The translations under genes were made by a program, and so were the position numbers. Of a stretch of DNA of 64,000 nt, positions 26,801 through 58,406 are shown in pieces (positions within the stretch are counted from its first letter, which is position 1; every line of letters begins with the position of its first letter). The notes under the pieces were generated by a model. It was given only the letters and a program-made list of their open reading frames with translations, was not told the DNA's origin and did no database searches. The stretch spans positions 19,171,648 to 19,235,647 of the forward strand of contig CM075765.1 in NCBI GenBank assembly GCA_037974665.1, read 5' to 3'. This DNA is from Ehretia macrophylla. Taxonomy: Eukaryota > Streptophyta > Magnoliopsida > Boraginales > Ehretiaceae.

Positions 26801-29800
26801 TTTACACTGCAAACTGACATTCAAAAAGAAGTTGTTTCGAGAGTCAGATGAAGCTATTACAGACCCAATGTTTGTGCAGTTATGCTATGTTCAAGTATGC
26901 AACATTATTTCCTTCACAGTTTTGTTGTGAGATGGATTATATTTAGTGATCTCATTTTTTAAGTCAAACTGTTTGTTACTTCTGGTCTTCATGATACATT
27001 ATCGCGTATTTACAGTTGCAACATGATTACATATTGGGCAATTATCCAGTTGGAAGGGACGATGCGGCACAGCTGTCTGCATTGCAGATCTTGGTTGAAA
27101 TTGGATATGTTGTTGGCCCTGAATCATGCACGTTAGTGGCTCCTGCATTTTTATTTAACTTTTTATATCCAGTCTGTTACATTTTGTTTTTCCATTTTCC
27201 TTTTGCTGCTTGCTGCCTTCATAGTTTATTTCATTCAACTGGTGCTTGTGCTTTTTCATATTGTTATGATATCTCTGGATTGCTGTCCAGTATCATATTC
27301 AGCATCACTTAGCTTTCAGAACTGCTTGATGCAAAGTTTTTATATTATTGATTTCTATGATGAGGGATGCAAATTCCATTATGCATGTTTCCTTCACTAA
27401 TAAAATTCTTTATTTGTCTAGTGACTGGTCATCACTTCTGGAGCGATTTCTTCCTAGGCAGATTGCTATTACTCGAGCAAAGAGGGACTGGGAATTGGAG
27501 ATCCTTTCTCGTTATCGTTCACTGGTATGAAAAATCATTTGAAATCAACTCAATAGATAAAGTGTACAATAATTTCCATCGTCTTCCATAGCTTTTTCCT
27601 TTTTGTGTGACAAAGAGTTTGTCTTCTCCCATATCCTTATTTTTTTTAAATCCGTTGGTATCCGAGCTTTGCCCGACTTCTCCCATATTCTTATTAACGG
27701 CTCTCTTGTAAATATTTTGTTGAATAATAATTGCCATGTAATTTTTCCACAATTTATACATAAATAATGTGTTTCTGCTGTCAATTAGTATGAAAAATGT
27801 AGATGATACATTTAATTGTTTCCTTATCTCTTCAAATTTCCAGCATGCTCTTGCTTTTCCTTTATTATTGATGAAATCAATGCTGAGCTTGGGGTAGCAT
27901 ATATTCTATATTCATAAGCTTCCGTAATTGGATATTTGTTGCTATAGGAAAATTTGACAAAAGATGATGCAAGGCAACAATTTCTGCGGATCCTAAGAAC
28001 ACTTCCCTATGGGAATTCAGTTTTCTTCAGCGTTCGGAAGATTGATGACCCCATTGGACTTCTTCCAGGAAAGATAGTATTGGGCATCAATAAACGCGGG
28101 GTCTGTTGTGAATTGTTAGATTGCTATAAAATCTTTGCCAGCTAAGAATTTTATTTACCTGATTGTGTATGTATATCCGCCAACAGGTCCATTTTTTCCG
28201 TCCAGTTCCAAAGGAATATCTGCATTCAGCTGAATTAAGAGACATTATGCAATTTGGTAGCAGTAATACTGCTGTCTTCTTTAAGATGAGAGTTGCCGGG
28301 GTCTTACATATATTTCAGTTTGAAACTAAGCAGGTGAGATATTTGTATTCTTCTCAATAGGTTTATGTCTTGCATCTCATTGGTTGCCTTTCCGCTTTAC
28401 TTTTGTAATTAGAATCAACTTTCTTGTTTTATGCAGGGAGAGGAAATTTGTGTTGCCCTTCAAACACATATAAATGATGTGATGTTACGCCGCTACTCTA
28501 AAGCACGATCTGCTGCTAATGGTTCAGTTAATGGAGATCTCCCCTACAATCCTAAACCTCCCAGTCTGGACAGTGTCGAGAAACGCGTTCAGGATCTATC
28601 AAGAGCTCTTGAAGAATCAAAGAAGAGAGCTAATCAGGTCAGTAGTGTTGATGGATGGAGAGCCAATCATTTAAGACTAAATAGCAGCTTGTTGATTGGT
28701 AAAGAAGCCCTTGTCTTTGATCATCATAGACACAATTATGCAGGATTGATAATTAAGTAACTTGTCGACAGAGCTTTGACAGATGTTGGTCGCACACTCG
28801 CACTTGTGTTTCCTTTCTTTGTTAATGTTTTAATTGAATTATCTTTAGCGGTTCCCTCCCCTTTCACAAAAGAAAGCAAAAGGAAGAAAGGAACGGGAAA
28901 ATAAAGAAGATGAGGAGTTGCTAAAAGATGACCAGAAGTTGACAAACTAGTTTTTTCCTTCCTCCGAACCATTTTGGGTGTCATGTGAAGAGAGATAAAT
29001 TGTCTGTATTTACTTTCTTTTACTACGTGGTACGAGGTTCATCATTTGGGTATGCTTATACAGTTGCAAGATGATTTGGAAGAAAAGCAAAGACAAGAAG
29101 TAAAAATGCAAGAGGAACTTGAGAGCTTGAAAGATAGCTTGAGAACTGAAAGGAAAAATGTAGCTGAAATTATGTCTGACCGAGATAAATTGAGATCTTT
29201 ATGCGATGAAAAAGATTCTGCTCTTCAGGTATTAATTTTTAAAATGCTCTATAATGTGCTCATGTACTATATTTGTTATTATTAATGTCCAAAATTGTAT
29301 TTTCAGTTCCTTATTTCAGCACGTCTTATTTATAGGCTGCAGTATTGGAGAAGCGGAGCATGGAAGTGAGGCTTGCAAAACTAAGTACTCAAGGATTAGA
29401 AAGTAATATTAGAAAGGAATTGGTTGAAGCAAATAACCAGGTATGACATGGAGCTTATTTCAATACTAAGTTTGACCATAGACATTTTTGTCTTTGATTT
29501 GCTCTCGACTAACATGTACTTTTTGGATCTTAACCACATTTGATATAAATTGTTTGTTCCAACTTTATTATAACAGTGTGTAATTATTGGTCTGTGATGG
29601 TTTGGTAAATTGTAGCATTAATGATGATTATTTGCAGATTATACATAAGATCCAAGATGAATTGAAAGCGCGCAGTGCAGAGTTGCGTGTGGCTGAAGAA
29701 ACTAACAGAAAAGTTGAGCATGAAAAAGCATTTTTGGAAGAAAAAGTTTCGAGGCTGGAAAAGAAGAAAACTGAAGAGGTATTCAAACTGATCTTTGACT

Positions 29801-32800
29801 TGGAGCTTTAAGAGTGTGTAGTCCATTTCCACTAAAGTATTTTATATGTCGTGTTGTAAAATTTGCAGACAGAAGTTCTTGCAAAAATTTTTGAACAGGA
29901 ACGCAAGGCATTGAAGCTTAAAATTTTCGATCTTGAAAAGAAGTTAGAAGAGGTCACACAAAATTTCGCGGTCACACAAACCGCTCTTTCCTCTAAGGAT
30001 ACAGAGTTGTCCACTTTGCAAAATAATCTCAGGGAATTGGAGGAACTGAGGGAAATGAAAGAAGTGAGAACATTATAATACTTTATCCTTGCTACTTATG
30101 GAAAAATGTCATAACCTTGCTAAATCCTTGTAGATTTTGTTTGATTTGTCGTTATTAAAGCTTTTAATTTGTGACTCCTTCATTTAGGATATTGATAGAA
30201 AGAATGAACAAACTGCTGCAATTTTGAAGATGCAAGGGGCTCAATTGGCTGAGATGGAGGCACTTTATAAGGAAGAACAAATATTAAGGAAACGATATTT
30301 CAACATGATAGAAGGTAGAAATGTTCTTCGCTTCCTTCTTCTCTCTGACAAAAGAACTATTTAACTTGACAAATTGAAAATTTTAGTCATTTTTCCTGTT
30401 AATGAAAGAGACTGCTTTTTGCACATTATTTACATTTGCAGACATGAAAGGAAAGATTAGAGTCTACTGCCGATTAAGGCCTCTTTGTGGAAAAGAAATT
30501 TCTGAGAGGGAAAGAAATGCCATCACAAGTATTGATGAGTTTACAGTTGAACATCTATGGAAAGATGAAGTAAAGCAACACATGTATGATTGTGTTTTTG
30601 ATGGCAATGCAACTCAGGAGGATGTTTTTGAGGATACAAAAGTAAGTTTGATGACTTCTTTCGTAATTTACTTATTGTGGCAATTTTTAACTAGTCTTTC
30701 ATGACTCAATTGTGTATTCGTCATTTAATAAAGTGAATTCATTGTAATGTCTCATTATTTCGATTAATGTTTCTCGTTGATGCAGTATTTGGTCCAATCT
30801 GCTGTTGACGGTTATAATGTGTGCATATTTGCCTATGGTCAAACTGGTTCTGGGAAGACATTTACAATCTATGGATCAGATAAGAATCCTGGACTCACCC
30901 CACGGGCTATTTCTGAACTATTTGCAATTATTAAGCGAGATAGTAAAAAGTTCTCATACTCCTTGAAGGTGCTTTACTGTTAGGAATAAAGTTGTCTTTG
31001 CTTTTATATGAGCATCAATGACTTGAATAGCATGCTTTTGTGTTAATTTACTAGTAACAATAATTCATCAACCAATTTATCTTGCAGGCTTACATGGTGG
31101 AGTTATACCAAGATACACTGATAGATCTTTTACTACCGAAGAATGCCAAACGCCTGAAGCTAGACATCAAAAAAGATTCTAAGGTGATATTATCAAAAAA
31201 ATTGTTACTTATAATTTTTTTATATAAATATTTATATTTCCGTTACTTATTCTCTCTTCTGTTCTAACTTCAGTCTGCCCATGCATCTGGTTTTGATGAA
31301 GGTTTTCTATTTAGTTAGGTTTTGAAACTTTCCCGACCATATTTTGATGTGCAGGGCATGGTTTCTGTTGAAAATGTGACAGTAGTACCCATTTCAACTT
31401 ACGAGGAACTAAAAAGCATAATCCAACGAGGATCAGATCAACGTCATACAACCGGGACTCTGATGAATGAGCAGAGCTCAAGATCGCATCTGATCCTCTC
31501 TGTTGTGATTGAAAGTACCAACCTGCAAACTCAGGCTGTAGCCAGAGGAAAGGTATTAATTTATTATTATTTTTGATAACTTGTATTCGTTGGAGATGCA
31601 TGAAATGTGGTCGTTATTAGAATTTTCAAGGAAAAAAATATTTTATTGGTAGTGGTATCTTTTGATAGTGTTTGGCGTCTGACATTCTGGGTGCTTCCTA
31701 CTTAAGTTGTAAATTTTAAAGTTTGAAGTTCCGATAATGCTTCTGTTTTTTATCTCTCACTTGGATAAACTTAATAATATCCAAGGCAAGTTAACCTTCT
31801 CAAGAGATTGGAAGTCCTGCCATGTTTTGTAGGAGTGCTACATTGTCATTGGTGATCTAGAATAGATCACGATATAACTTCTCTATGGTTCTTTTCTCGT
31901 GTGAAATGATTATAATCAATGTACTTGGGTATCTTTGGTGGAAGTTTCATACTTGAGGCTTAGTTGTGCTGGAAATTTTTTGAGTGAGGGTGCATGTGAT
32001 TGCACCTTTATAGAGATAAATCTGTACATTCCGTTGCATCTATTCTTCGTTTTGTGGTTCAAAATTGTATGCTTGTGCTTACATGATTTCTTAAAACATC
32101 TTGTGCAGCTAAGTTTTGTAGATCTTGCTGGTTCTGAAAGAATTAAAAAGTCAGGTTCTGCCGGTAGTCAACTGAAAGAAGCTCAGAGTATAAATAAATC
32201 ACTCTCAGCTCTTGGGGACGTCATTAGTGCTTTGTCATCGGGTGGTCAACATATACCTTACAGGAATCACAAGCTGACAATGTTAATGAGTGATTCTCTT
32301 GGTGGTAATGCTAAAACACTGATGTTCGTGAACATATCTCCAGCAGAATCAAACTTGGATGAGACCTACAATTCTCTAATGTATGTTCTTTATACACATA
32401 CGTATGCATGCACGCTCACACATTTAGTTAAATTCGTTACTGCCTCCATCTCATACAGATTCTCCAAACTGAATTTTCTCATGATCTTAGTATTGTATTT
32501 GACATCGGAATATTCTTATGAAAAAGATTATATAATTTGATTCGTCAAAAAAACTCTTTTCGCAACATAACCTTATATTGAAAGAAAGTAGCTTCTATTT
32601 TTTGAAAGTGTTCCGCTTATTTGCTTAAAGAATGGCCAAGGAATCAAGCCTTGAAACATCACTATAATTTATATTCACATGTCAACTGGTTTGGAGCTTG
32701 AATTATGTACAAGTTACCATATGCTCTTAAAATTAGGGCAATCTTCTTGGCCATCTAACTTGACACTGTTGGTTTTGTTGTCATGTAACCAGGTACGCCT

Positions 32801-37741: not shown

Positions 37742-38011
37742 CATAACTCAATAATATGTTTGATAACGTAAGACATGACATCACCCTGAAAAGACAATGG
37801 AAGCATCAAAGTCCCATAAACAACTACAACTCCAAAATCCAACAAAGCTCCCATAATTCATGCACAAGGCAGGCAACATGGACACTACCAGTACAATCCC
37901 AGTGATAGATTTAGAAGATTTTCCAAACCAGACAAGAAAATTGATGAAGGCATGTGACGAATGGGGATGTTTCAGGATAGTTAACCATGGCAAGATTCTG
38001 CCAGTGACACT

Positions 38012-38178
38012 TGATAACGATGTGCTAGATTTATTAGTCTTGTGCTTGGCATATTTGTACTTATCTTATCACAGCTTGTATACTTATCTTCAATTACTGA
38101 TGTATTATAAATAAGCACACTTGTAAACATTAAACATACAGGGAAATATACAACATATTTTGAGTGTAAATCTCTTCA
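38012..38178 (+). repeat. 5' LTR of the copia element
   Basis: 167 bp, starts tgataacgatgtg and ends aaatctcttca. Contains a TATA-like tataaata at 38106-38113, a likely core promoter. Confidence 0.95.
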
Positions 38179-38190
38179 TGGTATCAGCAG
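38179..38190 (+). other. Primer-binding site (initiator Met tRNA type)
   Basis: tggtatcagcag directly follows the 5' LTR. It matches the usual plant copia tRNA-iMet complementary site (tggtatcagagc) at its first nine bases. Confidence 0.85.
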
Positions 38191-38293
38191 ACCTCTTAGA
38201 CTAACAATCCTTCCCACAGCCAAACACTATATCGTCCAAATCACATCAAACACTTATAACCTCCGCTACTCTCTCCTCTCTAGTTAATCCACC

Positions 38294-39085
38294 ATGACCT
38301 CCACCGCCTCTGTTCAGTCCTCCACCGCTGCTCCCTCCACCGCCTCTGCTCAGTCCTCCACCGCTGCTACCTCTACTACCATATCTTCCGTCTCCATCTT
38401 CTCTCTACCGTCCGCTAACGTCAAGCTTTATGTTACTGTACTTCTTGATCACTCCAATTACTTGACTTGGCAAACCCAGATGCTCAATTTCCTTACCTTC
38501 AACAAGCTCCTGGGCTACGTCAATGGCTACGTCAAGAAACCCACTCTTCCTGACTCTGCTACTGACCACGATCATGCGACCGTTGCTTCTGAACTGGACA
38601 ATTGGTTGTGTTATGATCGTTTTGTCACAGCATGTATCACGTCCACTCTCTCGGAATCTCTCGTTCATCAGGCGACAGGCTTCGACTCCGCTCATTCTCT
38701 CTGGCAGTCCCTTCGCGAGTCATTCCAACACCAATCCATGGCACGCAAATCCCTCTTGCGTGTTCAACTGCGTACTTTAAAAAAAGGCAATCTCTCTATC
38801 GCCGAGTATCTCCAGCAAATACATATTGTCACCACTGCTCTTGCCGCAGTTGGTGATGCTCTCTCTGATTCAGACATGGTTAGTGCAACTCTCGAGGGTC
38901 TCCCCAAGGAATATCGTCCGTTTGTTACTTCTGTCGAACAGTTGGTAGACACTCCATCCTTCTCCCACGTTCGTGCTAAACTCCTCGTATACGAACAGAG
39001 GATTCTTTTGGATGACCCTCCTTCTTCTCATTTCTCACATTGGCTTCTCTACTTTTTGATCTTCAGATCGCAAATTTTCACTTAA
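38294..39085 (+). CDS. Copia gag, C-terminally truncated
   Basis: 263 codons from an ATG after a Kozak-like acc. A Ser/Thr/Ala-rich start is followed by the plant copia gag (UBN2-type) region: LLDHSNYLTWQTQMLNFL, WLCYDRFVTACI, SLWQSLRESF, SIAEYLQQI. Expected next parts, the CCHC zinc knuckle and the aspartic protease with its DSG active site, are absent. Around 39035-39060 the sequence jumps to the end of the protease region (SSDRKFSLNDILHVPHITRN) in the +1 frame. This points to an internal deletion of several hundred bases that also broke gag-pol continuity. Confidence 0.85.
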   Translation: MTSTASVQSSTAAPSTASAQSSTAATSTTISSVSIFSLPSANVKLYVTVLLDHSNYLTWQTQMLNFLTFNKLLGYVNGYVKKPTLPDSATDHDHATVASELDNWLCYDRFVTACITSTLSESLVHQATGFDSAHSLWQSLRESFQHQSMARKSLLRVQLRTLKKGNLSIAEYLQQIHIVTTALAAVGDALSDSDMVSATLEGLPKEYRPFVTSVEQLVDTPSFSHVRAKLLVYEQRILLDDPPSSHFSHWLLYFLIFRSQIFT

Positions 39086-42000
39086 CGACATTTTACACGT
39101 TCCTCATATTACTCGCAACCTCCTTTCTGTTTCTCAGTTTACTAAGCAAAATAATGTTTCACTCGAATTTACTCCTTCTTCTTGTGTTGTCAAGGACCTC
39201 CACACCGGGACTCCCCTACTCACGGGCCGCGTTGATTCAAAACTCTACACACTCTCCCTGCCTCTTGCATCCACATCTTCCAGCCCTGTTGCGTTTGCTG
39301 CTTCTGCTCGTGCACCATTTGAAGTCTGGCATAATAGGATGGGACACCCAGCTCATTCTGTTTTGTCTACACTTCGTTCTAGAAATTTTTTTAGTGTTAG
39401 TGGTATATCCAGATTAAATAAGCTTTGTAACTCATGTATGCAAGGCAAAAGCCATAAACTTCCGTTTCAGTTATCTAATAAAATTGCTCGTTTTCCTCTT
39501 GAACTAATACATTGTGATATCTGGGGCCCGGCTCCAGTTTCGTCTTTCTCTGGTTACCGTTTCTTCATTTTATTTATTGATGACTTCAGTCGTTTTACGT
39601 GGATCTATCCCTTGAAACACAAAAATGACTGTGCTGACTCTTTTATACATTTCAAGCAGCTTAGTGAAAACTATTTTAATTCCACAATAAAATCATTTCA
39701 ATGTGATGGGGCTAGAGAATTAACTCAAGGGCGTTTTAAAACAATCATTGACTCCTCGGGTATCCAATATCGCATCTCCTGTCCCTATACACCAGAACAA
39801 AATGGCCTAGCTGAACGCAAAATTCGCCATGTTACAGAAATGGGTGCTACTCTCCTTTTTCATGCGGCTCTTCCTAAACAGTTTTGGCTTGAGGCCTTCA
39901 CCACTGCAGTCTTTCTCATTAATCGTTTACCTACTCCCGTCCTCTCACAGCAATCTCCCTTTCAGGTCCTATACAACACTTCGCCATCTTACTCCACTCT
40001 CCGCGTGTTTGGAAGCCTATGTTACCCTCACCTTGGTCCTGTAAAAACCGACAAGTTAAGCCCCAAAACACAACCTTGTGTCTTCATCGGGTATAGTCCA
40101 TGTCACGTAGGTTATCGCTGCTACAATCTCATAACTGGCAAGGTTCATATTTCTCGTCACGTTGTGTTTGACGAAACTCATTTTCCATTTCACCAAACCA
40201 ACGCAAACATCCAGTCTGCCCGTGGTATTCTCTCGGCTCTACCATCTTCTCATGATGTCGTGTCTACTTCACCTCCACCTTCTGGTTCATTTGTTGCTTC
40301 GCCACAAACAGCTAGCACTTTCCCTCTACTACCACCGATGTGCCCCCCTCTACCTTTCTCTCCCGCCTCTAGTAATCAACCATTGCAAGTGCTTGCACCT
40401 GTCCAGTCCATTCACAGTTCAACCATTGTGCCTGCTCCCTTGTCCACTCCCACCACCTCTCTTACCTCACAAACTCTGCTGCCCTCTCTCAATGCGTCTC
40501 CATTACCAGCTCCTGACTCCTCCTCCCTCACTCCTTCATCACTTCCTACACAGCCTAGTCAACCAACCTATCGCGATGTACTTCTGTCTCCTCAGCGTGT
40601 CACCACCTCCTCGTCTGCCATAAATTCTTCGCTGCCTTCTTCTGCTACTGCGTCTTTACCCATTCCCACGTCCACTCATCCTATGGTTACGCGGACGCGG
40701 GATAATACTCGTGTTCCACGTACATACCCTAACCATATCACCTTCACTACCGTGTCCTCTTCTTTCGCTGACACCGAACCTACATGCTACACTCAAGCAT
40801 CCAAATGTTCTCACTGGCGTACAGCTATGGATAAGGAATACAATGCATTGCTTCAAAATAGTACTTGGGTTCTTGAGCCACCGAAATCGACACTCAATTT
40901 GGTTGGTTGTAAGTGGGTGTACCATATAAAGCGTAAGTCGGATGGTTCTATTGAGCGGTACAAGGCTCGTCTCGTTGCGAAATGCTACAATCAGGAAGAA
41001 GGACTTGACTATACTGAGACATTCAGTCCTGTTGTTAAGCCGACCACCATTAGAATTGTGCTCTCTCTTGCTATATCGCGAAATTGGGTAATAAAACAGC
41101 TTGATATTAATAATGCTTTTCTGCATGGTGTTTTACAGGAAGATGTTTATATGGCTCAACCACCGGGCTTTGTTCATCCTTCCTATCCGTCATATGTGTG
41201 CAAACTTCAGAAAGCCATTTATGGTCTTAAGCAAGCTCCTAGGGCATGGTTCTCACGGCTCAGTACATTTCTTATGCAGTTGGGTTTTACTTCTTCAATC
41301 TCGGATACTTCATTATTTATTCGCCACTCATCAACTGCTCCTGTGTTTGTGTTGGTCTATGTTGATGATATCCTTATTACTAGTCAGTCTTCGACAGTTG
41401 TCCAATCTGTTCTAGATGCATTGCACCGCCAATTCTCAATCAAAGATCTTGGTCCAATTTCTTATTTTCTCGGCTTACAAGCTCAGCATGTTGATAATGG
41501 TCTTCGGCTCTATCAAACAAAATATGCTACTGAGCTAATTGCTCGTGCAGGTCTCCAAGCGGCTAAACCAGTTGCCACTCCGCTAGCTACTTCGCAACAT
41601 CTTTCGCAATTTGATGGTGACCCACTGACCGATCCTACGCACTACCGCAGTGTGGTGGGTGCACTCCAGTACCTCACGATTACTAGACCAGATCTTACGT
41701 TTGCTGTGAACAAAGTGTGTCAATTCATGCATTCACCCACTGATGTGCATTGGTCGGCAGTCAAGAGAATTTTAAGATATGTTAAGGGCACGTTGGGTTA
41801 TGGTCTTACTATCACACCTTCTTCCGAGACTCAACTTCATGCCTATTCCGATGCTGATTGGGCTGGATGCCCGGATGATCGCAGGAGTACTCATGGCTAC
41901 TGCATTTACTTGGGGCCTAATTTAGTTTCGTGGTCTGCAAAGAAGCAAACTACGACTTCGCGCTTGAGTACTGAGGCGGAGTACCGAGCGATTGCATTTG

Positions 42001-42320
42001 CAACTGCTGAGCTCTGCTGGATTCAGTCTCTTCTTGCTGAGTTGCGCAGTCAATCGTTGATGCAACCTGTATTATGGTGTGACAACATCGGAGCTACGTA
42101 TCTCACAGTCAACCCTGTCTTCCATGCTCGCACGAAGCATATCGAAATTGATGTACACTTTGTTAGGGAAAAAGTTGCTTCTGGGTCCTTGCGTGTGCGG
42201 TTCATTTCTACTGCGGATCAAATTGCTGACATTATGACCAAACCTATCTCACGTGCACGGTTTGCATCTCTTCGACACAAGCTCACCGTTCGGGCTCTGG
42301 CTTCGCTTGAGGGGGCATGA
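39060..42320 (+). CDS. Copia pol: integrase, reverse transcriptase, RNase H
   Basis: Open from 39060 to TGA at 42318-42320; the first in-frame ATG is at 39339. Order of parts: pre-integrase (WHNRMGHP, CNSCMQGK), integrase core with acidic residues in HCDIWGP, QCDGARE and PEQNGLAERK, a Ser/Pro-rich linker, reverse transcriptase (WVYHIKRK, QLDINNAFLHG, YVDDILIT), and RNase H (YSDADWAGC, STEAEYRAIA, WCDNIGA, TKHIEID). Integrase before RT identifies Ty1-copia. No internal stop. The upstream protease is gone, so maturation of a polyprotein from this copy is doubtful. The stop codon is the first three bases of the 3' LTR. Confidence 0.93.
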   Translation, partial: SSDRKFSLNDILHVPHITRNLLSVSQFTKQNNVSLEFTPSSCVVKDLHTGTPLLTGRVDSKLYTLSLPLASTSSSPVAFAASARAPFEVWHNRMGHPAHSVLSTLRSRNFFSVSGISRLNKLCNSCMQGKSHKLPFQLSNKIARFPLELIHCDIWGPAPVSSFSGYRFFILFIDDFSRFTWIYPLKHKNDCADSFIHFKQLSENYFNSTIKSFQCDGARELTQGRFKTIIDSSGIQYRISCPYTPEQNGLAERKIRHVTEMGATLLFHAALPKQFWLEAFTTAVFLINRLPTPVLSQQSPFQVLYNTSPSYSTLRVFGSLCYPHLGPVKTDKLSPKTQPCVFIGYSPCHVGYRCYNLITGKVHISRHVVFDETHFPFHQTNANIQSARGILSALPSSHDVVSTSPPPSGSFVASPQTASTFPLLPPMCPPLPFSPASSNQPLQVLAPVQSIHSSTIVPAPLSTPTTSLTSQTLLPSLNASPLPAPDSSSLTPSSLPTQPSQPTYRDVLLSPQRVTTSSSAINSSLPSSATASLPIPTSTHPMVTRTRDNTRVPRTYPNHITFTTVSSSFADTEPTCYTQASKCSHWRTAMDKEYNALLQNSTWVLEPPKSTLNLVGCKWVYHIKRKSDGSIERYKARLVAKCYNQEEGLDYTETFSPVVKPTTIRIVLSLAISRNWVIKQLDINNAFLHGVLQEDVYMAQPPGFVHPSYPSYVCKLQKAIYGLKQAPRAWFSRLSTFLMQLGFTSSISDTSLFIRHSSTAPVFVLVYVDDILITSQSSTVVQSVLDALHRQFSIKDLGPISYFLGLQAQHVDNGLRLYQTKYATELIARAGLQAAKPVATPLATSQHLSQFDGDPLTDPTHYRSVVGALQYLTITRPDLTFAVNKVCQFMHSPTDVHWSAVKRILRYVKGTLGYGLTITPSSETQLHAYSDADWAGCPDDRRSTHGYCIYLGPNLVSWSAKKQTTTSRLSTEAEYRAIAFATAELCWIQSLLAELRSQSLMQPVLWCDNIGATYLTVNPVFHARTKHIEIDVHFVREKVASGSLRVRFISTADQIADIMTKPISRARFASLRHKLTVRALASLEGA
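42309..42317 (+). other. Polypurine tract of the copia element
   Basis: gagggggca immediately before the 3' LTR, where plus-strand DNA synthesis would be primed. Confidence 0.8.
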
Positions 42321-42484
42321 TAACGATGTGCTAGATTTATTAGTCTTGTGCTTGGCATATTTGTACTTATCTTATCACAGCTTGTATACTTATCTTCAAT
42401 TACTGATGTATTATAAATAAGCACACTTGTAAACATTAAACATACAGGGAAATATACAACATATTTTGAGTGTAAATCTCTTCA
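42318..42484 (+). repeat. 3' LTR of the copia element
   Basis: 167 bp, apparently identical to the 5' LTR. It points into the remainder of DAO-A exon 1; the first ATG after it (42491) is in the DAO frame. Confidence 0.95.
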
Positions 42485-43676
42485 ACACTGATGCAGGAAA
42501 TGAAAGCAGTGGTGAGGTCACTGCTTGACCTGCCAATGGAAATCAAGAAAAGAAACACTGATGTCATTGCAGGCAGTGGGTATATGGCGCCTAGTCAAGT
42601 TAATCCACTTTATGAGGCCTTTGGACTCTATGATTTGGCATCTGCTGAAGCTGTTGATGCCTTTTGCACTCAGTTGGATGCCTCTCATCAGCAAAGGTCA
42701 GAATCATTAGTTTTGCTTAATATTTTGTTTTTAAGTTGTGATTTGCTTGATTAACCTTTTTGTTTTGTAATGATTATTTGTGCGTAAAGTAATAATGTCG
42801 TTATAATAAAATAATATGGGGTACTATTGAATGTGGGGTCAAATAAATATATGATTACTTTGTTGTCATTGATCACCGTAGTACATTTTAACGTTATAAA
42901 CGAAAGTCAAAGATTGGTATATTTAATTTGTGGTAGCACTAAAGTCTATTTGTAGGAATTTTCGTTCTTGAAGTTGCTTTCAGTAGCCTCAGCTAATGCC
43001 TTTTGCATTTGCAACATGAAACAGAGAGACAATTGTTGAATATGCTCGAGCAGTGCACCGCGTGATAATAAATATTGGCGAGAAGTTGGGCGAAAGTTTG
43101 GATTTGGCAAGTGTTCCTTTCAAGGAATGGCCTTGCCAGTTCAGAATGAATAAATACAACTTCACCAATGACTTTATTGGTTCCACAGGTGTACAAATAC
43201 ACACAGACTCTGGTTTCCTCACAATACTGCAGGACGATGAAAATGTAGGTGGTCTTGAAGTTATGGACAGATCTGGAACGTTTGTGGCCGTTGATCCCTG
43301 GCCGGGGACCCTCCTTGTCAATCTTGGAGACGTTGCTGCTGTAAGCCTAACATTTTCTTTTGCTAACTGGATTTGTTACATTCACCTTTTCCCAACTCTA
43401 ATTTACAATTGTATGCATGTCGTCAAGGCATGGAGCAATGGTAGATTCTGCAATGTCAAGCACCGAGTATTATGCAAAGAAGCAGCGATACGAGTGTCAA
43501 TTGCTTCATTTCTCTTAGGACCAAAGGAGGCAGTGGTGGAACCACCACCCGAACTAGTGGACTCTGCACATCCCCGGCTATATACTCCCTTCACTTACGA
43601 AGATTATAGAAAGATCAGGTTCTCAACAAAGTTGGAAGCTGGTGAAGCACTTGCTCTTGTACGCTCTGACTCGTAA

Positions 43677-44836: not shown

Positions 44837-45127
44837 GGATGCTGTGTCAATAAGGCTGGGGTGGGTGTCCATCCTCTAACCAAATTGTCAAATACAGAAT
44901 CTTAAAAAGACCATAAAATACAAGTAAACAACATTAGAATTTACATTGCCATATCTACCTCCCTACTTTGTTCTTCGGTTGAACAAGTCGAAAACAAAAT
45001 ATCAAAACAAAAATGAACAATGGATGGAAATGTTGTGGAGTTCCTCTCCAGCAAACATGACCCTAGGATAATACACATCGGATAAGGAAAAACGCAACAC
45101 ACAACTGTTATAGTCGTTTGTAGAAAA

Positions 45128-45284
45128 TTACACCATAGAGTGGCCATTGTATCCTGTATAGCTTTCCCTGCTGAGATATTGATCAGTCCATCCTGAATTG
45201 AAGTGAGAAGTAGTGATGGATGTTTATGTGATGTTTGTTTCTGTGACAGATGCCGTGTTAACTGTACTAGAATCTATATCAATT
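45128..45284 (-). pseudogene. Lectin receptor kinase 3'-end fragment (LecRK-A)
   Basis: Reads on the minus strand as the last about 50 codons of the lectin kinase at 51207-56945, ending in GHSMV and a stop at 45128-45130, with a small insertion near 45267. Homology to the kinase stops at 45284, where KCBP 3' sequence begins. It is a duplication breakpoint remnant, not a gene. Confidence 0.85.
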
Positions 45285-47994: not shown

Positions 47995-49906
47995 ATGGAC
48001 ACAACCAGTACAATCCCAGTGATAGATTTAGAAGATTTTCCAAACCAGACAAGAAAATTGATAAAGGCATGTGAAGAATGGGGATGTTTCAGGATGGTTA
48101 ACCATGGCAAGATTCTGCCAGTGTCACTGATGCAGGAAATGAAATCAGTGGTGAGATCACTGCTTGACCTGCCCTTGGAAATCAAGAAAAGAAACACTGA
48201 TGTCATTGCACTTACAGGCAGTGGGTATCTGGCACCTAGTCAAGTTAGTCCACTTTATGAGGCCTTGGGATTCTATGACTTGGCCTCTGATGAAGCTGTT
48301 GATGCCTTTTGCACTCAGTTGGATGCCTCTCCTCAGCAAAGGTCTGAATCATTAATTTTTCTTAATATTTTGTTTTGAGTTAAAATTTACTTGATTAACC
48401 CTTTTGTTTTGTGACGACAATTTGTGCATGGGAGGTCAATAATTGTGAACCGATTGTCAAAATATATTACCCCTAAAAAAATCATAAACTCCAAATACGC
48501 TATATAAGTATTTGACAACTCCTCCTAGTATCAATTAATTTTAAGATAGAATCTCAGTAATCTTAACATGTTATTAGAACTGAGTCTCATATTCATCTAC
48601 TTATGACCCATCTGTGTTGTTTGGTTTTGCTTTCACTGACTCATTTCTTGTCAATGTCAACTCTCGTTTCTCGTCAGGTCATACATGAGGGGGTGTTGGA
48701 ATATGTATTAATCCCAAATTAGAAAATTACCAACTCGAACACTACCTTATAAGATCTAGGTCTGTTACTCCATCTAATACCAATTAATTTTAGCATCAAA
48801 CCCATAATTCTTAACATCGATAATGCAATTATGATGAAAAAATTTGGACTACTGAGTTTTGGGATCAAATGACCGTGTCTTTCACTTGGACTATTGAGTT
48901 TTGGGATCAAATAACTGTGTCATAACTTCACTACCATTGGTCCTCTCATGCATTATAAAGTTATGAGTGAACCCAAATCATGCAATCTTATTTGGACGCT
49001 TTACCTTCTTTGATCTTCTGCTAATCGGATTTATATCTACGTTGTGTTTACTAAGTTAGATTATCTAGACATTGGTTTGGATTCAATATATATTTCGTTT
49101 AGTTTCATAAGTCAGATACATCTATCTGAAGATGCATTACTAAGGTCAAGATTGATATGTCTAATTTCTGCTAGCACGAAAGCTTACACGTATAAGTTTC
49201 GCTCTTCTAGTTGCTTTTAGTAGCCTCAGCTAATGTCTTTTGAAAGCAACATGAAACAGAGAGACAATTGTTAAATATGTTCGTGCAGTGCATCGCGTGA
49301 TAGTAAATATTGGCGAGAAGTTGGTAGAAGGTTTGGGCTTGGCAAGCATTCCTTTTGGCGAATGGCCTTGCCATTTCAGAATGAATAAATACAACTTCAC
49401 CAATGACTCTATTGGTTCCACTGGTGTACAAATACACACGGACTCTGGTTTCCTCACAATATTGCAGGACGATGAAAATGTAGGCGGTCTTGAAGTTATG
49501 GACAGATCTGGAACATTTGTGGCCGTTGATCCCTGGCCGGGGACCTTCCTTGTCAATCTTGGAGACGTTGCTGCTGTAAGTCTAACATTTTTTTGCTAAC
49601 TGGACTTGTTACATTCACCTTGTCCTAACTCTAACTTACTATTGTATGTATGTTAAGGCGTGGAGCAATGGTAGATTCTGCAATGTCAAGCACCGAGTAT
49701 TATGCAAAGAAGCAGCAATACGAGTGTCAATTGCTTCATTTCTCTTAGGACCAAAGGAGGCAGTGGTGGAACCACCACCCAAACTAGTGGACTCTGCACA
49801 TCCCCGACTATATGCTCCTTTCACTTACGAAGATTATAAAAATCTCAGACTCTCAACAAAGTTGCGAGCTGGTGAAGCACTTGCTCTTGTACGCTCTGAC
49901 TCTTAA
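47995..49906 (+). CDS. DAO-like 2-oxoglutarate dioxygenase, intact (DAO-B)
   Basis: Likely cytosolic Fe(II)/2-oxoglutarate-dependent dioxygenase of the DAO group (oxidation of indole-3-acetic acid in characterised members). Exons 47995-48341, 49260-49575 and 49658-49906 join in frame to 912 nt (303 aa). Seen: N-terminal DIOX_N region from TIPVIDLEDFP, iron ligands H175 and D177 in QIHTDSGF, H233 in CNVKHRV, and R243-x-S245 in IRVSIASF for 2-oxoglutarate. It has two more residues (ALTGSG) than DAO-A at about residue 75. Intron 1 is 918 bp against 328 bp in DAO-A, partly because of a TRIM-like element. As DAO-A is broken, this is the only intact DAO-type gene in the window. Another small-acid 2OGD substrate cannot be excluded. 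Confidence 0.92.
48455..48816 (+). mobile_element. TRIM-like miniature LTR element in DAO-B intron 1
   Basis: Two diverged direct repeats that both start tgt and end cttaaca: 48455-48568 (114 bp) and 48694-48816 (123 bp). The 125-bp interior starts with a degenerate primer-binding site (tgttattagaac) and ends with a purine tract gaggggg at 48687-48693. Flanks ccgat and tcgat form a 4/5 matching TSD. No coding capacity. This layout is that of a terminal-repeat retrotransposon in miniature. DAO-A intron 1 lacks it. Confidence 0.7.
48844..48927. repeat. 42-bp tandem repeat, two copies
   Basis: Two units starting ttggactac and ttggactat, each containing tgagttttgggatcaaat, within DAO-B intron 1 just after the TRIM-like element. 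Confidence 0.8.
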
Positions 49907-51206
49907 GATTACTCAAATACACTGCGCTTTCTTCGCTTTCTGTGTTCTGTTTGGTAATGTGGGGTAAAGTTTGAGATGAATGATGAAATATAGAAGGAGC
50001 TTTTCATTATAGTTCATAATTCATGGTGTAACCTATCTTCTTCTATATACTATTGTACGATTTTGTACATTAGTGTAATCATAATACTAGCTTCTTTGAA
50101 ATTTTAAAACGACCATTGTCTTTCACTTATATAGCAGTTTAAAAAATCCGAACCTCTTAATTTCTTAATACTCGAATGAGATTCAATCCTACTCATAAAC
50201 CTGTATTTAGGAAAGTAACCTCGTTGCTCGATGAAATTGTCACCAAGAATTTACATATGATAATATTGTTATCATTGATAAACTCAGGCTTCCAAATCTA
50301 CTTAGTGAAGCTGCAGTGAAGGTTATGTATATGTGGACATTTATTGAAGATGGACTCAATAAAGATGTTACATTCAAAGACCATAACTCTCTGTAGAATC
50401 AACAATACAGTGCACTATTTTTTCGTTTTTGTTTTTGTTTTTGTTTTCTTTTTTGTTTTTATTTTTTATTTTTTATTTTTTTGTTTTTATCACTTGGGCT
50501 CACTTTGCTTTCTGTGGCATTATCGCGCACATCTAACTCCACCCAATAATTACAAGTTTGTCAAAGTTAAATGTTCTGCAGAAATACCTCTGCATCACCA
50601 TCAACACTTGAAGTCAGACAAACTCAGGCTTCTGAGGAGCTCAGTGTGAAAAACAAATGGTTGGCTTTTGGCCAAAACAACTCTGGCAAATGGAAGATAC
50701 ACAATTTTTTTGATTTGCAGATACTTACAAGTAATGCAAGATAATGATCTTCACTAGTTAGAAATTGTTCTCTCTCTTAAATAAGAATATATTGTAATGT
50801 CTCACATAGGTGGGAGAAGTGTTAAGTAGATTATGGGCTCGGGCGTGACAACTGTAGCAACTGGACATAATAAATTTTATTTATCCTGGTCAAACTCTAT
50901 CTGACTGCGAGTCTGTGTCAATAAGATTGCAGTGCGCATCCATACTCTAACCAAATTTTCAAATACAGAATCTTAAAAAGACAATAAATACAAGTAAACA
51001 ACAGTAGAATTTACATTGCCATATCTACCTCCCTACTTTTGTTTGTCTGTTGAACAAGTCAAAAACAAAATATCGAAACAAAAATGAATAATGGATGGAA
51101 ATGTTGTGGAGTTCCTCTCTAGCAAACATAACCACAGTATAATAGACATCCAATAACGAGAAAATGCAACACACCACTGGTTATGGTCGTTTGTAAAAGA
51201 AACTAA
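49907..51206. other. DAO-B to LecRK-B spacer (converging 3' ends)
   Basis: Holds the DAO-B 3' UTR and, in opposite orientation, that of LecRK-B. A T-rich gtttttgttttt microsatellite lies at 50424-50483. Most of the segment aligns with 43677-45127. Confidence 0.55.
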
Positions 51207-54200
51207 CTACACCATAGAGTGGCCACTGTATCCTGTATAGGTTTCCTTGCTGAGATATTGTTCACTCCCTTCTGAATTGAAGTGGGAAGTTGTGATGGAT
51301 GTTTCTGTGATGGTTGTTTCTGTAACAGATGTCGTGTTAACTGTATCTATATCAATTTGCAGCACAGCAGGCCAGATGAATGCTGGTTTGAATGGTGGAA
51401 CACTTGGAGCTGGAATTGTTCCTGATATAATCTGCACTATATCCTGTGTTTTCGGCCTCTCACTTGCTATAGGGTGTGAACAAGCCAACCCAAGTAGTAT
51501 AAGTCTCTCAGCTTCTTCAGCTTCATAATTATCCCCCAACCTCTCATCCACAGCTTCAAGTAGACGGCCTTCCCGATGCATGAACCAAACCCAGTCTACC
51601 AGAACTTGGAAGTTATCAATCCTGGTTCCAGGTCGCAGGCCACATACTACTTCCAAAATGACTGCCCCAAATGCATAGACATCAGACTTCTGTGTGGCCT
51701 TTCCCATATGGAAACACTCTGGTGCAATGTATCCAATTGTGCCTAACACCCCTTCAGCCTCAGCATATGAGGTCTTTTCATTGTCCAGGGCTCGGGCAAG
51801 GCCAAAGTCACCAAGACAAGCATTGAAGTTGGCATCGAGCATGATGTTACTGGCTTTAAGGTCGCGGTGTACCACTCTCTGGTTATACTCGTTATGAAGA
51901 TAATGCAGAGCTGAGGCCACTCCAGATATGATTTTTGTCCGGAGGTTCCAGTTGAGTGGCTCTGTATCTGGTTCTGCAAACAGGTGCTTGTCTAGGCTTA
52001 GATTAGGCATGTATTCGTACACCAATAGCAGCTTCATATTCTTGTGACACCATCCTGTTACAGAATACACATGGTCAAATAGTTGAGAATTGGCAAGCCA
52101 CACAAATATTTTATTTTAGTTTTTATTTTATATCACAAAGAAATTAATTATACGATTCTACGAGTGAGCTTATAAGATAGTATTATGAGTTTATGTTATA
52201 ATTCCGGTTAACCACTTTGAGCCAATGGAATTGAAGTTTAAAAGAATTATTTTAAACTTATGACACTAATCTCCCTTAGGAACTTAGCCTAAGATTTGGT
52301 TGAATTCAGAAGGCTAACTAGGAGAACGGCTCAAATTGAGCGTCATCATAATTCATGTAATTCTGGGTTAAACTAGTAAACAATCAACCTAACCCGTTCA
52401 AATGATCAGATCGTCTTGTAGAAGTTTCTCCTCATATTCCTATCATACATAGACTTATTATAGTCTCAAGCAATTCTTATCTCTTGCTTAGTTATTCAAA
52501 TAACACCAAAAGAAGATTTATATTAGTCGTGCCTTGTTAGCCTTGTGCCTAACGCTACAAGTTGTGATTATCTGTATTTGGACAAGTCAAAGTAAATGCA
52601 TATAACATTGTAAATCTTGAAGACAAAGGGTAATATCATTTTCATGAGCTCATGACTCGTTAGTTTAATCTTCAAAATTTTTGAAAACTTCCCCAAAACC
52701 GATGACGTTGCATTTGGGGTTGAACGGTCTGAGTAGGAGGAAGTATCTTCTCTATTTCCATGATGTGCAGCATAGCAATTGCGATGACGATGGCTGCTTA
52801 GTGGATTCCACTCGTCAGCCAAAAAAATATCCATATATTTCAATTTTCAAGCATGACTGAAACACAGTTTTGAATCAACTCAAAATGTGATGAAAAAAAT
52901 CAGTAAAATAATAATAATTCGATAGTTATATCGTCATCTTATCACGACTAGTTTTTTTTTTTGTTTTTTTTATAAAGTTATTACTCCCACTAACTTTAAT
53001 TTTTTAAAAATATATTGGTAATTTAAAGATATTTTTAATTTGAAAAAAAGCGTACAATCAGTCCCACTAAAAAATAAATCATATATAAATATTAAATTAT
53101 GTTTTATAACCTACACTAAATCAAAATTCTAAATCGATCCCTACCTAATACTCATCTTGAATTGTGAAAGACGATAATAGGCAAAGCATATCTTTTTTTT
53201 TTTTTTTCCTGGGGAGGCTTAAAGCCAAACCACCAACAAACTAAATGAGGGAAGTTTTGCCTCCTCTTATCTTTCTCTAACAATACTAAGAGAGGGTGGC
53301 AGATGTTGTGAACAGTGTGATTGCCAAGGGGTCATTCAAGAGCATAGCTAGAAAATTAATTTGCATACAAATTAACCTTCGTGTACACATGTTCTAGATG
53401 GAACTTGCAAAGCAGATCTTCAAGGCAATGATATATCTAGGACAAAAGCACCTTGAATTCAGAATTCAAGACAGCTAATGCCTTTATTCAAAATTGTCAG
53501 CAACTCAAGACTCAATTAAGGTCTTTAACAACTTTAAGGTTAATGTTGTTATTCAATCCGTTCGAATTGATATCAATCTTTTTATATGGAGTGAGCTTTA
53601 TATGTATGTGAGATTTATTTCATCTCTCACGGACTGATGTTAATTCGGACTTATAGAAGAGTTTTCCTAAAGTCAATTTTTGCAACCTACTTTTTATGAG
53701 CGAAGAGAAACCAGCGGCTGTTTGCAAATTCTACCCAAACTGAAGATCAAGTTTTTGCTAGTATAAAAAATAGTGCGCAAGTGTAAAGTGTAAGAAAAAA
53801 TATTTTGGTTATAGTATGCTCAACCTTGCGATTTGTATAATTTGGAATCTCTATACGAGAGGATTCTCTTATGGATGAGCTTTTCTGTTGTTTTAGCACA
53901 AAAATGTTTTAAACTAATAGAATCACTTACTTATTTACTAAAAAAAAAAAAAAATTGCCTGACTGATACTGCCAAAAGAAAATAAAAAACCTCCATGAAC
54001 ACCCAAGATAATGGTTATTAATTCTTCTAGCAAAGCATGAATTAGAAATTAATTAATTAATTATAGTTTACTAACTTTGGCTTTTATTCTATATCAGTTT
54101 ACATCACTTTCAGAGAAGTTAATCGGGCAAAAACCATTTTAATCCCTGAGGTTTGCTTTAAAGATTAAATTGGTCCCTTAGGTTTACAAAAAGACCAAAG

Positions 54201-56945
54201 AGGTCCCTCCAGTTAACTTTTGTTAGTTAAATATTAATATTCAAAGGGTTGACTGAGTTAAAAGACCATTATATCCTTAACCAACATATATTATAAAAGA
54301 AAATTACAATAAAAGTCTAAATCAGTCTAAAAAAAATATAATTCGCGTAGGATAAAAAAACAAAAACTAAAAAATATCAGTTCAAACATAAACAAATTAA
54401 ATTCAGTAATATATCGTTAAAAAATGAACAATCATCATCGATATAATTAACAGCGAGGGTACCGACCAAAAAAGAGGATGAATCATGATTATTTATTTTT
54501 TAACGATATATTACTAACTTTAATTTGTTTATGTTTAAACTGATATTTTTTAGTTTTTATTTTTTTTTTTTACGTGAATTATTTTTTTTTTAGACTGGTT
54601 TAGACTTTTATTTTAATTTTTTTTTTTAATATATGTTGACTAAGGATATAATAGTTTTTTAACTCTGTCCACCATTTGAATATTAATATTTGACTAACAA
54701 AAGTTAATTGGAGGGACCTTTTTAGTCTTTTTACAAACCTGAGGGACCAATTTGATCTTTAGAGCAAACCTCAGGGACTAAAATGGTTTTGACCCGAAGT
54801 TAATCTATGTCACTTTTTTTTTGGGTCAAATCTATATCATTTGATTGCAGATGATATTGGAGTAATCCTTTCATTTCACATCAATGAAGCTGCAGTCCTC
54901 CGGTTTTCACTTTTTCAACTTTGGTAATTGGTCTGCTCCTCTTTATCCAATATCAGCCAACATTCTATTCTTAAAGGCATCAATGGATTATATTCCGTAC
55001 TGACAACGTTTTACCGACTAACAATTTTTTTTGTCAGTCCGAATATCATTAATTTATTCATATATAAGTAAATCTCATATATTGTGAGACCATCTTATAT
55101 TTTTAGGATTGATAATCTGCTTAAACTGATCAAAGAATTTTTATTTGCCGACATTATCCATCAACATTCGATAGAGGAGAAGATAAGAATGTTGAAATAA
55201 ATGTGATAAAATCAGGAAAAACAAGATTATGAATGAGGTGATAGAAAAAAAAGTAAGGTTGCCTAGATCAAGGATAAAATGAGGGAGTATCATCTGAGAT
55301 GATATAAACATGTTAGAAGACGATTTATAGAGATCTGTTAAAAGGTGCGAAAGTCTCATAGAAAAGGTAAAGAAAGACTTAAAGATGAATTAGACTGAGA
55401 TACTAATTAGAGCAATAGCTCGTTTGTATGAAACTAAAAGAAGAGACAATTTTTGGATAGGAATGATCTGATATCGATAAATACATATAGCTGACTTCAA
55501 AACAAGCACAATTTGATTTGATTTGATTTATTTTGTTTGGTTAATCCACCAACAGGTGGATAGCAAGTTATGCTACAAGGAGAACTGCGAAAAAAAAAAA
55601 AAAAAGATTGGATAATAAGTATCCGTTAACACAAGACCATCATATCATAAGAGCAATAATCAAGATTAATATTGTATAAGAAGCGCTTACCGAGCAATCG
55701 GACGAGATGTTTGTGCCTGAGACGATTGATTATGGTAAGCTCAGCCAAGAAATCATCACGACCCTTAATGCTTTCCCTGCAAAACCACTTGACAGCAATC
55801 TCTGAGTATTCCTCCCCAGCTAATTTTCCTCTGTACACAACTCCAAATCCCCCTTGTCCAAGCTTGTTTTTCTCATCAAAGTTATTAGTTGCTTTCTTCA
55901 AATCCTTGAACTTGAACTCCCTGGGAGTTCCAGGCAAGCTCTTGAGTTTCCCTAGTATGTCTGAATTCGACCGCGCCATTCGCCTCTTGTGCAGATAGTA
56001 TCCCAGCCATGCGGCTGCCATTAACAAAAGCACAAGTGTAGGCACCCCGGCCGCAAGAGCAATCTTGAGCCATGGTTTCTTGTCTTCTGCTATATACTGA
56101 ACTGTCAAGTTCCATCTCAACACACAGTTGAGTTGTCTAGTATTTCCTGTTGATGCTGAGAACCCAAAGTATGAATACTCGTTTACATAATCTCTCAGGC
56201 TGAGATTGTATGTGAGTATTGGTGAACTAGGCCTTGGTGGAGTAGGACCAGTCTCGGTAGCTTGTTCTGCGATGTACACCTCTATGGTCTTGTTAACACC
56301 ATCATATTGTACCCACAAGTTGAAGAATTTGGCACCTACGATTTCAATGCCATATGGAGTCAACGGCACAGAACTAACAGATCGAACGCTATTGATATCG
56401 AGGCCTACATGGTTGGCATCAGGGTCGTAGTCTTGCTTGTAGGTATCAACCTCGATAGCAATAAGTTTGTTTGAGGAGTTTCTATCAGTGGTAGCATTGG
56501 TTAGGCCAAGATACTCCCCATAGCTATTGAGAGGCAAGTCCAGGTCAGGCGCGATGACGAACGCAAGCCCTTCACCTGCTGTCTTGTTATCAGCTAGCCG
56601 ATTAATGTTGATCAGAAAGGAAGTGTTGAAAGATGCCACCCTGCTACTGAAATTGGCTGTTGTATCACCATCCCATAGCCTGAAAGGCTTTTTCAGGAAT
56701 ATCCTTCCTGATTTATAGGTTAAGTTAAAGTTTGGCGCAGCCGAATCAAGAGTCACCTGAAGGGCGCCGTTGTTGATAGTGGCATTGGGTACTATTTCAA
56801 AGATATCAGAGTAGTATTGAATTTGATCTTGAGGGAAGGGACCATATTGTCTACTAAAGGTTTTGAGTTTCTGAGCTTCAGAAAAAGCCTGGAGGCAGCA
56901 AAGAAGGACAACAATGGTGCTGAGTTTTGCTGTTAGCAGTGCCAT
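51207..56945 (-). CDS. L-type lectin receptor-like kinase (LecRK-B), two exons
   Basis: Plasma-membrane receptor kinase. Exon 1 is 56945-55691 and exon 2 is 52054-51207 (minus strand); they join in phase 1 at LVRLLG|WCHKN to 2103 nt, 700 aa, usual for the family. Signal peptide about 1-24 (LLTAKLSTIVVLLCCLQAFS), legume-lectin domain about 28-280 with several N-glycosylation sequons, transmembrane about 294-317 (LAAGVPTLVLLLMAAAWLGY), kinase from about 360: GQGGFGVV 363-370, K386 in IAVK, HRDLKASN with D483, DFG 501-503, APE in IAPECF. All catalytic residues are present. The ATG at 56943-56945 fits the signal peptide. The odd feature is the 3636-bp intron; most L-type LecRKs are intronless. 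Ligand unknown. Confidence 0.92.
54125..54795. mobile_element. Long-TIR MITE in the LecRK-B intron, 10-bp TSD
   Basis: 671 bp. Left end gggcaaaaaccattttaatc; right end actaaaatggttttgaccc, which pair; the arms extend roughly 300 bp. TSD gaagttaatc at 54115-54124 and 54796-54805. No coding frame. Mutator-like by TSD length. It adds a large potential hairpin to the intron. Confidence 0.88.
55275..55500 (+). mobile_element. Decayed LINE reverse-transcriptase tail in the LecRK-B intron
   Basis: With stops and frameshifts the + strand reads like the common plant LINE C-terminal tail: LRWYKHVRRRFIEIC, then KSHRKGKERLKDELD. Known tails have a WxGHVxRRP motif followed by a GRPKxTW motif. No ends or TSD were located. 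Confidence 0.5.
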
Positions 56946-57032
56946 TTTCGTGTGTGTTCGACCGCTAATGATCAATATTGGAAAATGCTGGCAAAATGGA
57001 AATGTGAGTCTTTGAAGCAGTCTACGCTTTTG

Positions 57033-57040
57033 TTTATATA
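57033..57040 (-). promoter_or_regulatory. Candidate TATA box for LecRK-B
   Basis: On the minus strand this reads tatataaa, about 90 bp before the LecRK-B ATG, a suitable spacing for a short leader. Confidence 0.5.
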
Positions 57041-58397
57041 TTGTTCAAGATATAGGAAGAGTGAGAGAGAGAGATGACAGGTATGAAGTTTGACATTGAA
57101 TAGGTTTTAGGTTTGGTCACACACTTTTCTTTTGCATTGCTTGGAAGCTGCCCGTGCGTGATTTCTTTGATCAGTGTTCTTTTAAATTGGAAGCACATCA
57201 CATTTCATGATAGTTTTGTTTATCACTCTTTTATTAATATCCCGTCTAGTTATCTACATACTATTTAGAATAAAGGAATTCAATAAAATTTTATGAAATT
57301 TATTTGCAAATCCTGAATTTAGCTTTACCCAAATTCTTATTCAAGAGGTAAAATTTATAATTCTAAGCCATCAAATTAGTTATTCATCTTTTAAAAACTA
57401 AACTGCCTTCTAAATTTTTTCCCCCCCTTTTTACTGTTTTTATTCTTTCACTTTCATTCATATATAGTTAATTCTTCTTCATTTTTTTTCTTGCAAGCTT
57501 CTTTATGGCGAAATTTTTTTCACATTTTTTAATCCAATATTCTTCTTTTGTTTTCAATTTAGAAGCCCAAATCATGAGTTTATTTATTCATTCATCCTTA
57601 TTTTTAGATAGTCTTATATATTTAACAATCTAAAATCATAAATTATTTATTCATGTTGTTTATCCATCAATACTAATTAATTATGTTTAATTTTAAAATC
57701 GATTAGTGTTATTGATGAAATACATATTCGTATTAAAGTGTCAAAGTAGAGCTCCAAGATATAAGGCATTTTTTTGGTAAAAAAAGATATAGGGATAAAA
57801 AAGAAATACTTATAATAAATATATTTATAAATCACAGAATTGATTTAATATTGTTTTACAGTTTCAAATAAGATAATTTATTTGTAAATACAAATCCTCA
57901 CAAAATTCATTTATAAATCAAATAAATTTTACACCACAAATGCTTCAAATTGAGAATTTCATGAGGCTATTTTCATCACTTTTTGCTTATATTTTTATTC
58001 AGACATAATATCATTTTCCTCCATGGGTTTTATACTAAATCCCAAACTCCCTAACAAAGTTTTAGTTTTACTCATATCCAATGATATTAAACTTTACTAA
58101 ATCAAACCTTATGTTGAAGGGTATTTTCATCTTTTTTACTTTTACATAATAAAATTAGATAAAATAATTTAATAAAATGATTCAATAAAAAGGTTATCAA
58201 TAATTAGAAAATTACTAACAATTGTATAAAAATGAAGAAAAAGATTAAAATAAATTTATTGTACAATTTCGTGTTATGCACAAATTAGAGAAAAAAATAG
58301 ATTCACTTTTAGTCTATCCTTTTTCTATGCGTATACATCTCAAATTAATCTGAAATCCAATGTATAATTTTTTGGGAATGAGCTAAACTTTTAGAAA
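57041..58397. other. AT-rich spacer upstream of LecRK-B
   Basis: Includes the presumed LecRK-B promoter. No other gene or TE termini are recognised. Confidence 0.45.
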
Positions 58398-58406
58398 TAT
58401 ATAAAA

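Follow-up and report, generated by a model that had tools for sequence, protein, structure and literature searches.

The DNA analysed here, hereafter the window, is a 64,000-bp stretch of the Ehretia macrophylla genome (G000:C2:19171648-19235647), taken from an assembly of 1.58 Gb in 20 contigs. It carries two tandem genes, DAO-A and DAO-B, predicted to encode 2-oxoglutarate (2OG)/Fe(II) dioxygenases of the DAO type, which act in auxin inactivation and whose substrates are likewise predicted from homology. The upstream gene, DAO-A, is interrupted in exon 1 by a Ty1/copia retrotransposon with long terminal repeats (LTRs), bordered by a target-site duplication (TSD). The features of the locus are as follows.

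37878..38011, + strand: 5' portion of DAO-A exon 1, upstream of the insertion (codons 1-45, the last of them being the split one)
38007..38011, + strand: 5' TSD, ACACT
38012..42484, + strand: copia element, 4,473 bp, in the same orientation as DAO-A
38012..38178, + strand: 5' LTR, 167 bp, TG...CA, 100% identical to 42318-42484
38179..38190, + strand: primer binding site TGGTATCAG..., directly after the 5' LTR, presumably of the initiator tRNA-Met type
38294..39082, + strand: gag frame, copia-type gag (Retrotran_gag_2/_3), crossing the deletion junction, with its stop at 39083-39085
39031..39032, + strand: deletion junction (446 bp lost from the interior of the element; microhomology of 2 bp, AT)
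39060..42317, + strand: pol frame, 1086 open codons (Pol_BBD end, gag_pre-integrs, integrase core, SH3, RVT_2)
42309..42317, + strand: purine run GAGGGGGCA just before the 3' LTR, which we take to be the polypurine tract
42318..42484, + strand: 3' LTR, 167 bp, TG...CA
42412..42419, + strand: TATA box TATAAATA in the 3' LTR (LTR position 95), with no ATG from there to 42491
42485..42489, + strand: 3' TSD, ACACT
42490..42696, + strand: 3' portion of DAO-A exon 1, downstream of the insertion, open
42491..42493, + strand: ATG of DAO-A Met46, in frame, the first ATG to follow the TATA box of the 3' LTR
43025..43340, + strand: DAO-A exon 2, open
43428..43676, + strand: DAO-A exon 3 with stop, open; 2OG-FeII_Oxy match in the frame 43020-43673
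47995..48341, + strand: DAO-B exon 1 (intact paralogue), with PDB matches 6kwa and 6kun
49260..49575, + strand: DAO-B exon 2
49658..49906, + strand: DAO-B exon 3 with stop

A reading of this DNA from its letters alone (the sequence-only reading) had placed the insertion at 38007-42489, with acact TSDs and identical LTRs. These coordinates, which include both TSDs, are correct: ACACT stands at 38007-38011 and again at 42485-42489, and the two LTRs, opening with TG and closing with CA, agree at 167 of 167 bases. In Pfam, the first frame matches Retrotran_gag_2 (E = 4e-24), a copia-type gag, and in the pol frame, scanned in two pieces, rve and SH3 precede RVT_2, which is the copia order of integrase before reverse transcriptase. 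Together with the TG...CA LTRs and the TSD, gag type and domain order identify the element as a Ty1/copia LTR retrotransposon.

The solved structures closest to DAO-B exon 1 are 6kwa and 6kun, which lead a list of 17 PDB matches with E = 6e-30 and 5e-23, respectively; 6kun is named DAO and 6kwa a 2OG/Fe(II) oxygenase, which we take to be AtDAO1. The exons of DAO-A and DAO-B are all bordered by GT/AG. As the sequence-only reading had stated, the element splits DAO-A in codon 45 (after coding-sequence base 134), the parts downstream (42490-42696, 43025-43340 and 43428-43676) are open, and the catalytic residues are retained there. Exons 2 and 3 of both genes, when translated, contain the HxD...H...RxS ligand residues; in the joined DAO-A protein they are H173, D175, H231, R241 and S243, which, going by the motif, we assume to be the metal and 2OG ligand positions, and their spacing agrees with the quoted residues of OsGA2ox3. 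The claim that DAO-B supplies the exact empty site has to be given up: the joined flanks of DAO-A read GTGACACTGATGCAGG and DAO-B reads GTGTCACTGATGCAGG, a difference of one base in the 5-base target and of two in the surrounding 41.

The tandem pair is not alone in the genome. A protein search with DAO-B, in which 130 of 247 candidates were scored and 83 matches listed, returned a third gene, DAO-C (L049, C7:88990244-88992849), open over three exons as spliced, and two partial DAO matches (C7:88950168-88950608 and C1:43016917-43017604); the remaining rows are at most 45% identical. Among the matches listed there are thus at least three loci with all DAO exons (A, disrupted, together with B and C), plus the two partial ones. 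The target site of DAO-C is uninterrupted at the protein level, and one search string for it at the DNA level found nothing. In its catalytic part, DPCPG and GNLGD replace the DPWPG and VNLGD of DAO-A and DAO-B, and the activity of DAO-C may, to judge from these replacements, differ from theirs. In the variation in dosage proposed earlier, at least one further open DAO gene, that on C7, has a share. The description of the product as auxin-oxidising fits a DAO-type enzyme in part: in the published work, DAO mainly oxidises conjugates of indole-3-acetic acid (IAA) with amino acids, recombinant Arabidopsis DAO1 and DAO2 oxidising the aspartate conjugate IAAsp at least 10 times faster than IAA according to PMC12344411, and the wording "oxidising IAA-amino acid conjugates" is therefore the better one.

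The element itself is incomplete. Relative to the C14 copy of the same family it is without 446 bp, and the dinucleotide AT is common to both sides of the break. What Pfam reports of Pol_BBD in the window element is profile positions 53-79 of 81 only, straight after the gag end. The corresponding piece in L040 (C18a), a copy with an open projected frame, encodes the motifs that we label a CCHC zinc knuckle (CQICQKTGHSAARC) and a DSGA protease site, Pfam reporting Pol_BBD alone (positions 1-69) for this piece. When the missing segment was cut from L031 and used as a query, it matched in 11 of the 15 fetched regions (L031-L034, L037-L041, L043 and L045), or in 10 of 14 if L031 is left out; no match was found in the window or, among the fetched regions, in L035, L036, L042 and L044, which are fragments or copies with other, larger gaps. 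The exact 20-base deletion junction occurs at one place in the genome, and three matches with one mismatch sit outside the copies listed by the LTR and pol searches. Without zinc knuckle and protease the window element does not qualify as autonomous, and because of its own deletion it would be unable to provide these functions itself. Either an autonomous relative would have supplied them in trans, or the deletion would have arisen during or after insertion.

The pairwise distance of the LTRs, a check set beforehand, is 0 of 167, with no sign of an old insertion. At assumed substitution rates of 1.3e-8 and 6.5e-9, the 95% upper bound on K (0.018) corresponds to 0.69 and 1.38 million years (My), respectively, and the 50% bound on the insertion age to 0.16-0.32 My. 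Hence, of the earlier wording "very recent", recent stands, but 0/167 still permits an age of up to about 0.7-1.4 My, and LTR identity alone is soft evidence of age. LTR pairs were measured in ten copies, four nearest and six more distant. The four nearest (C14, C10, C1 and C19) have 3, 3, 4 and 4 mismatches, and at their divergence an absence of differences has a probability of 0.017-0.05. Among the more distant copies, mismatches number 0/166 in C18a, 0/136 in C18b (one LTR cut), 1 in each of C2a and C2b, 2 in C15 and 9 in C17; the window copy is thus not the only member of the wider family whose LTRs are identical. L040 (G000:C18:69.53 Mb), with 0/166 LTR mismatches, matching CTAAG TSDs and 0 stops in the projected pol frame, appears by these features to be another recent insertion of that family. 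In a related subfamily, L039 and L045 (G000:C2:16.99 Mb and 16.72 Mb), about 0.27 Mb apart, have the same TSD, AATAC, and 1 LTR mismatch each, which suggests a single insertion copied by segmental duplication.

A second test, which makes no use of the LTRs, is based on changes private to each copy, counted at those pol codons for which three or more of the other near copies were present and in agreement, with multi-base codons dropped (1, 0, 2, 4 and 1 for the window copy, C14, C10, C1 and C19). The window copy has 24 synonymous (S) and 16 nonsynonymous (N) private changes and no private stop. The S/N counts of its four nearest relatives are 11/51 in C14, 13/47 in C10, 13/44 in C1 and 16/38 in C19 (53/180 in sum), with 3, 4, 1 and 1 private stops; their projected pol frames contain 5, 6, 5 and 3 stops altogether, against 0 in the window copy. 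The window copy differs both from these four (Fisher p = 5.3e-6) and from the neutral expectation of N/S ~2.7 (binomial p = 1.4e-5). The gag changes, few in number, are 8 S and 3 N in the window copy and 17 S and 38 N in the four nearest copies summed. This pattern suggests that most changes of the window copy arose at a time when functional proteins were still required in its lineage. In a pol tree of 11 rows (C3b left out), the window copy has the shortest end branch of the five-copy group (0.022 vs 0.030-0.043), its placement being open. Even with all 16 nonsynonymous changes taken as neutral and as made after insertion, the bound is 0.0099 per site. Where LTRs are too short to date an insertion alone, private pol changes can thus separate a copy that has just landed from decaying ones.

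The genes give a second point of reference. Of the 903 bases (301 codons) compared between DAO-A and DAO-B, 56 differ, with a nonsynonymous divergence (dN) of 0.048 and a synonymous divergence (dS) of 0.123, and DAO-B has two extra codons (Leu-Thr, 48211-48216) that are absent from DAO-A and DAO-C. Since this dS is well above the LTR bound, the insertion postdates the tandem duplication. Polarised against DAO-C on C7, with 27 ambiguous codons set aside, the DAO-A branch carries 6 S and 6 N changes and the DAO-B branch 5 S and 7 N, so that the two genes, on these counts, appear to have evolved alike since they were duplicated. The idea that DAO-A was already decaying was rejected: nonsynonymous changes are not in excess, and the insertion is the one disabling change in the gene. 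LTR identity, the private-change pattern and this lack of decay in DAO-A together support the recent insertion proposed by the sequence-only reading. The duplication itself is longer than the genes: 44842-45284, after DAO-A, is 86.7% identical to 50913-51357, which extends it to the edge of a lectin receptor kinase gene.

Several points weigh against a young insertion. The private-change test draws on 40 changes in a single window copy; it dates most of the private changes to before the insertion and gives no absolute age. A more distant copy, C2c, likewise has more S than N among its private changes (78 vs 48), while the more distant C15 (13 S, 27 N) and C18b (12 S, 30 N) have no synonymous excess. 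Fewer C>T/G>A changes would be expected in a young copy, and their share, 22/40 vs 152/233, is not significantly different (p = 0.22). Moreover, the searches yielded no source copy, an unusual outcome if the insertion is very recent. Of the candidates in the LTR search, 40 of 41 were scored, and of those in the pol search, made with 841 bases, 40 of 585 (41 matches listed); counts from both are lower bounds. By LTR, only the window's own two repeats came out at 100%, the next at 98%; by the pol piece, the next match among the 40 scored of the 585 candidates was at 96%. A near-identical copy should have come out at the top of such searches, and the lineage behind the insertion thus seems absent from the assembly; it seems either to have been lost or to be present in other plants only. 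The lineage that gave rise to the copy would still have been under selection for functional proteins, but without a close representative in the assembly.

The short LTRs, the missing source copy and a distance of about 4-5% in pol from the nearest copies would also suit an old insertion with LTRs that gene conversion has since homogenised. We consider this very unlikely on the private-change test, because the private pol changes of the window copy, mostly synonymous, look selected, unlike those of its four decayed sisters; a pol open over 1086 codons, a perfect TSD and a DAO-A with neither a nonsynonymous excess nor any other disabling change argue against it as well. LTR repeats are common sites of misassembly, but a misjoined repeat is more improbable still, given that the TSD is perfect, that a single exon of a single gene carries on in frame from one flank to the other and that the element is about 2% or more different from the other copies found. 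A third scenario, compatible with a recent insertion, concerns the order of events: the deletion may have come first, and the deleted element may then have been mobilised in trans by an autonomous relative. The identical LTRs and TSD of the deleted element speak for it, as do family members with 0 stops in the projected pol frame (C2a, C18a and C2b). Against it, the exact junction occurs once only in the assembly, and pol, to all appearance selected until recently, points to a recent deletion as well. We therefore treat mobilisation in trans as a genuine but tentative possibility, somewhat short of an even chance.

What we propose, with high confidence, is that DAO-A carries in exon 1 a young, internally deleted copia element and that its full-length enzyme is lost. 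A Ty1/copia element would have inserted recently into the upstream member of the tandem pair; a transcript from the DAO-A promoter would enter the LTR and soon reach a stop, yielding no full-length DAO-A, and DAO-B and the C7 copy would carry the function. The insertion thus very probably disables DAO-A. The knockout inferred earlier holds, as read from the sequence, for the full-length protein; a product driven by the LTR may nevertheless be made from the in-frame Met46. In that case the 3' LTR would start a transcript whose first ATG gives a DAO-A of 256 residues, without its first 45 but with the ligand residues, under retrotransposon control. The layout allows it: element and gene have the same orientation, TATAAATA lies at 42412 with no ATG before 42491, position 42491 is in frame with the downstream exons, and the four nearest copies have the TATA box in their 5' LTRs as well, at LTR position 94-95. 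The box was not found in L038, L039 and L040, the three more distant copies looked at; young plant LTRs are usually silenced; and the product may be unstable, as the missing N-terminal stretch corresponds in the alignment to about residues 2-40 of the crystallised 6kwa chain. We regard such a promoter swap as unlikely, a Met46 product that is inactive or unexpressed being more likely. Slightly less likely again is a promoter-swap allele under a retrotransposon that would respond to other cues, the element coming from an active lineage missing from the reference assembly. If true, a promoter swap would place an auxin-inactivation enzyme under retrotransposon control. If the empty site still segregates, DAO-A and DAO-B would offer a natural experiment on DAO dosage in a plant that has several such genes; otherwise, this is an ordinary gene-disrupting insertion.

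Elsewhere in the window, Pfam identifies a legume-lectin receptor kinase gene at 51210-57044 (- strand) and a second, partial kinase match at 62546-63046 (- strand); 50959-52608 and 61916-63561 are 89.5% identical. A MyTH4 match (25074-25463, + strand) and a kinesin motor match (31905-32537, + strand) lie within 25074-32537, an arrangement that we take to be that of a KCBP-type kinesin gene. The open frame at 1399-1854 (+ strand) matches RVT_3 (RNase H-like) and is probably a retroelement remnant, and the 375-codon open frame at 13324-14448 (+ strand) has no Pfam match at E 0.001. Two long near-palindromes, 54123-54797 (86% identity to its reverse complement) and 58406-58823 (83%), appear to be of the kind left by inverted-repeat transposons.

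According to PMC12344411, almost all vascular plants carry a single DAO gene, a setting from which the present genome departs with its at least three full-exon loci and two partial ones. Judged by the titles and abstract openings of the papers listed, no report of a DAO gene cut by a retrotransposon was found, nor, by title, one of LTR read-out giving a truncated product as envisaged here. The element resembles a short-LTR Ty1/copia lineage, which we assume to be the Ale/Retrofit type, in its 5-bp TSD, LTRs of ~166-167 bp and integrase before reverse transcriptase, as also in the length of full copies of the family in this genome, ~4.8-4.9 kb; it departs from that lineage in being without the zinc knuckle and protease segment. 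In soybean, SORE-1 is said to lie in an exon with a paralogue retained. PMC3698206 lists e4-SORE-1 (GmphyA2, maturity locus E4) as a null allele and cites a 2009 paper that, by its title, links gene duplication with a novel Ty1/copia-like insertion in soybean. SORE-1 in GmphyA2 resembles the window element in that a Ty1/copia-like insertion makes the allele null, as is very probable for DAO-A, and in that the gene hit belongs to a duplicated set. The SORE-1 allele differs between accessions, whereas the DAO-A insertion is known here from one assembly, and the window element, unlike SORE-1, is internally deleted. Cases in which a copia insertion disables one gene of a duplicated set are already known, and the DAO-A case is a further example.

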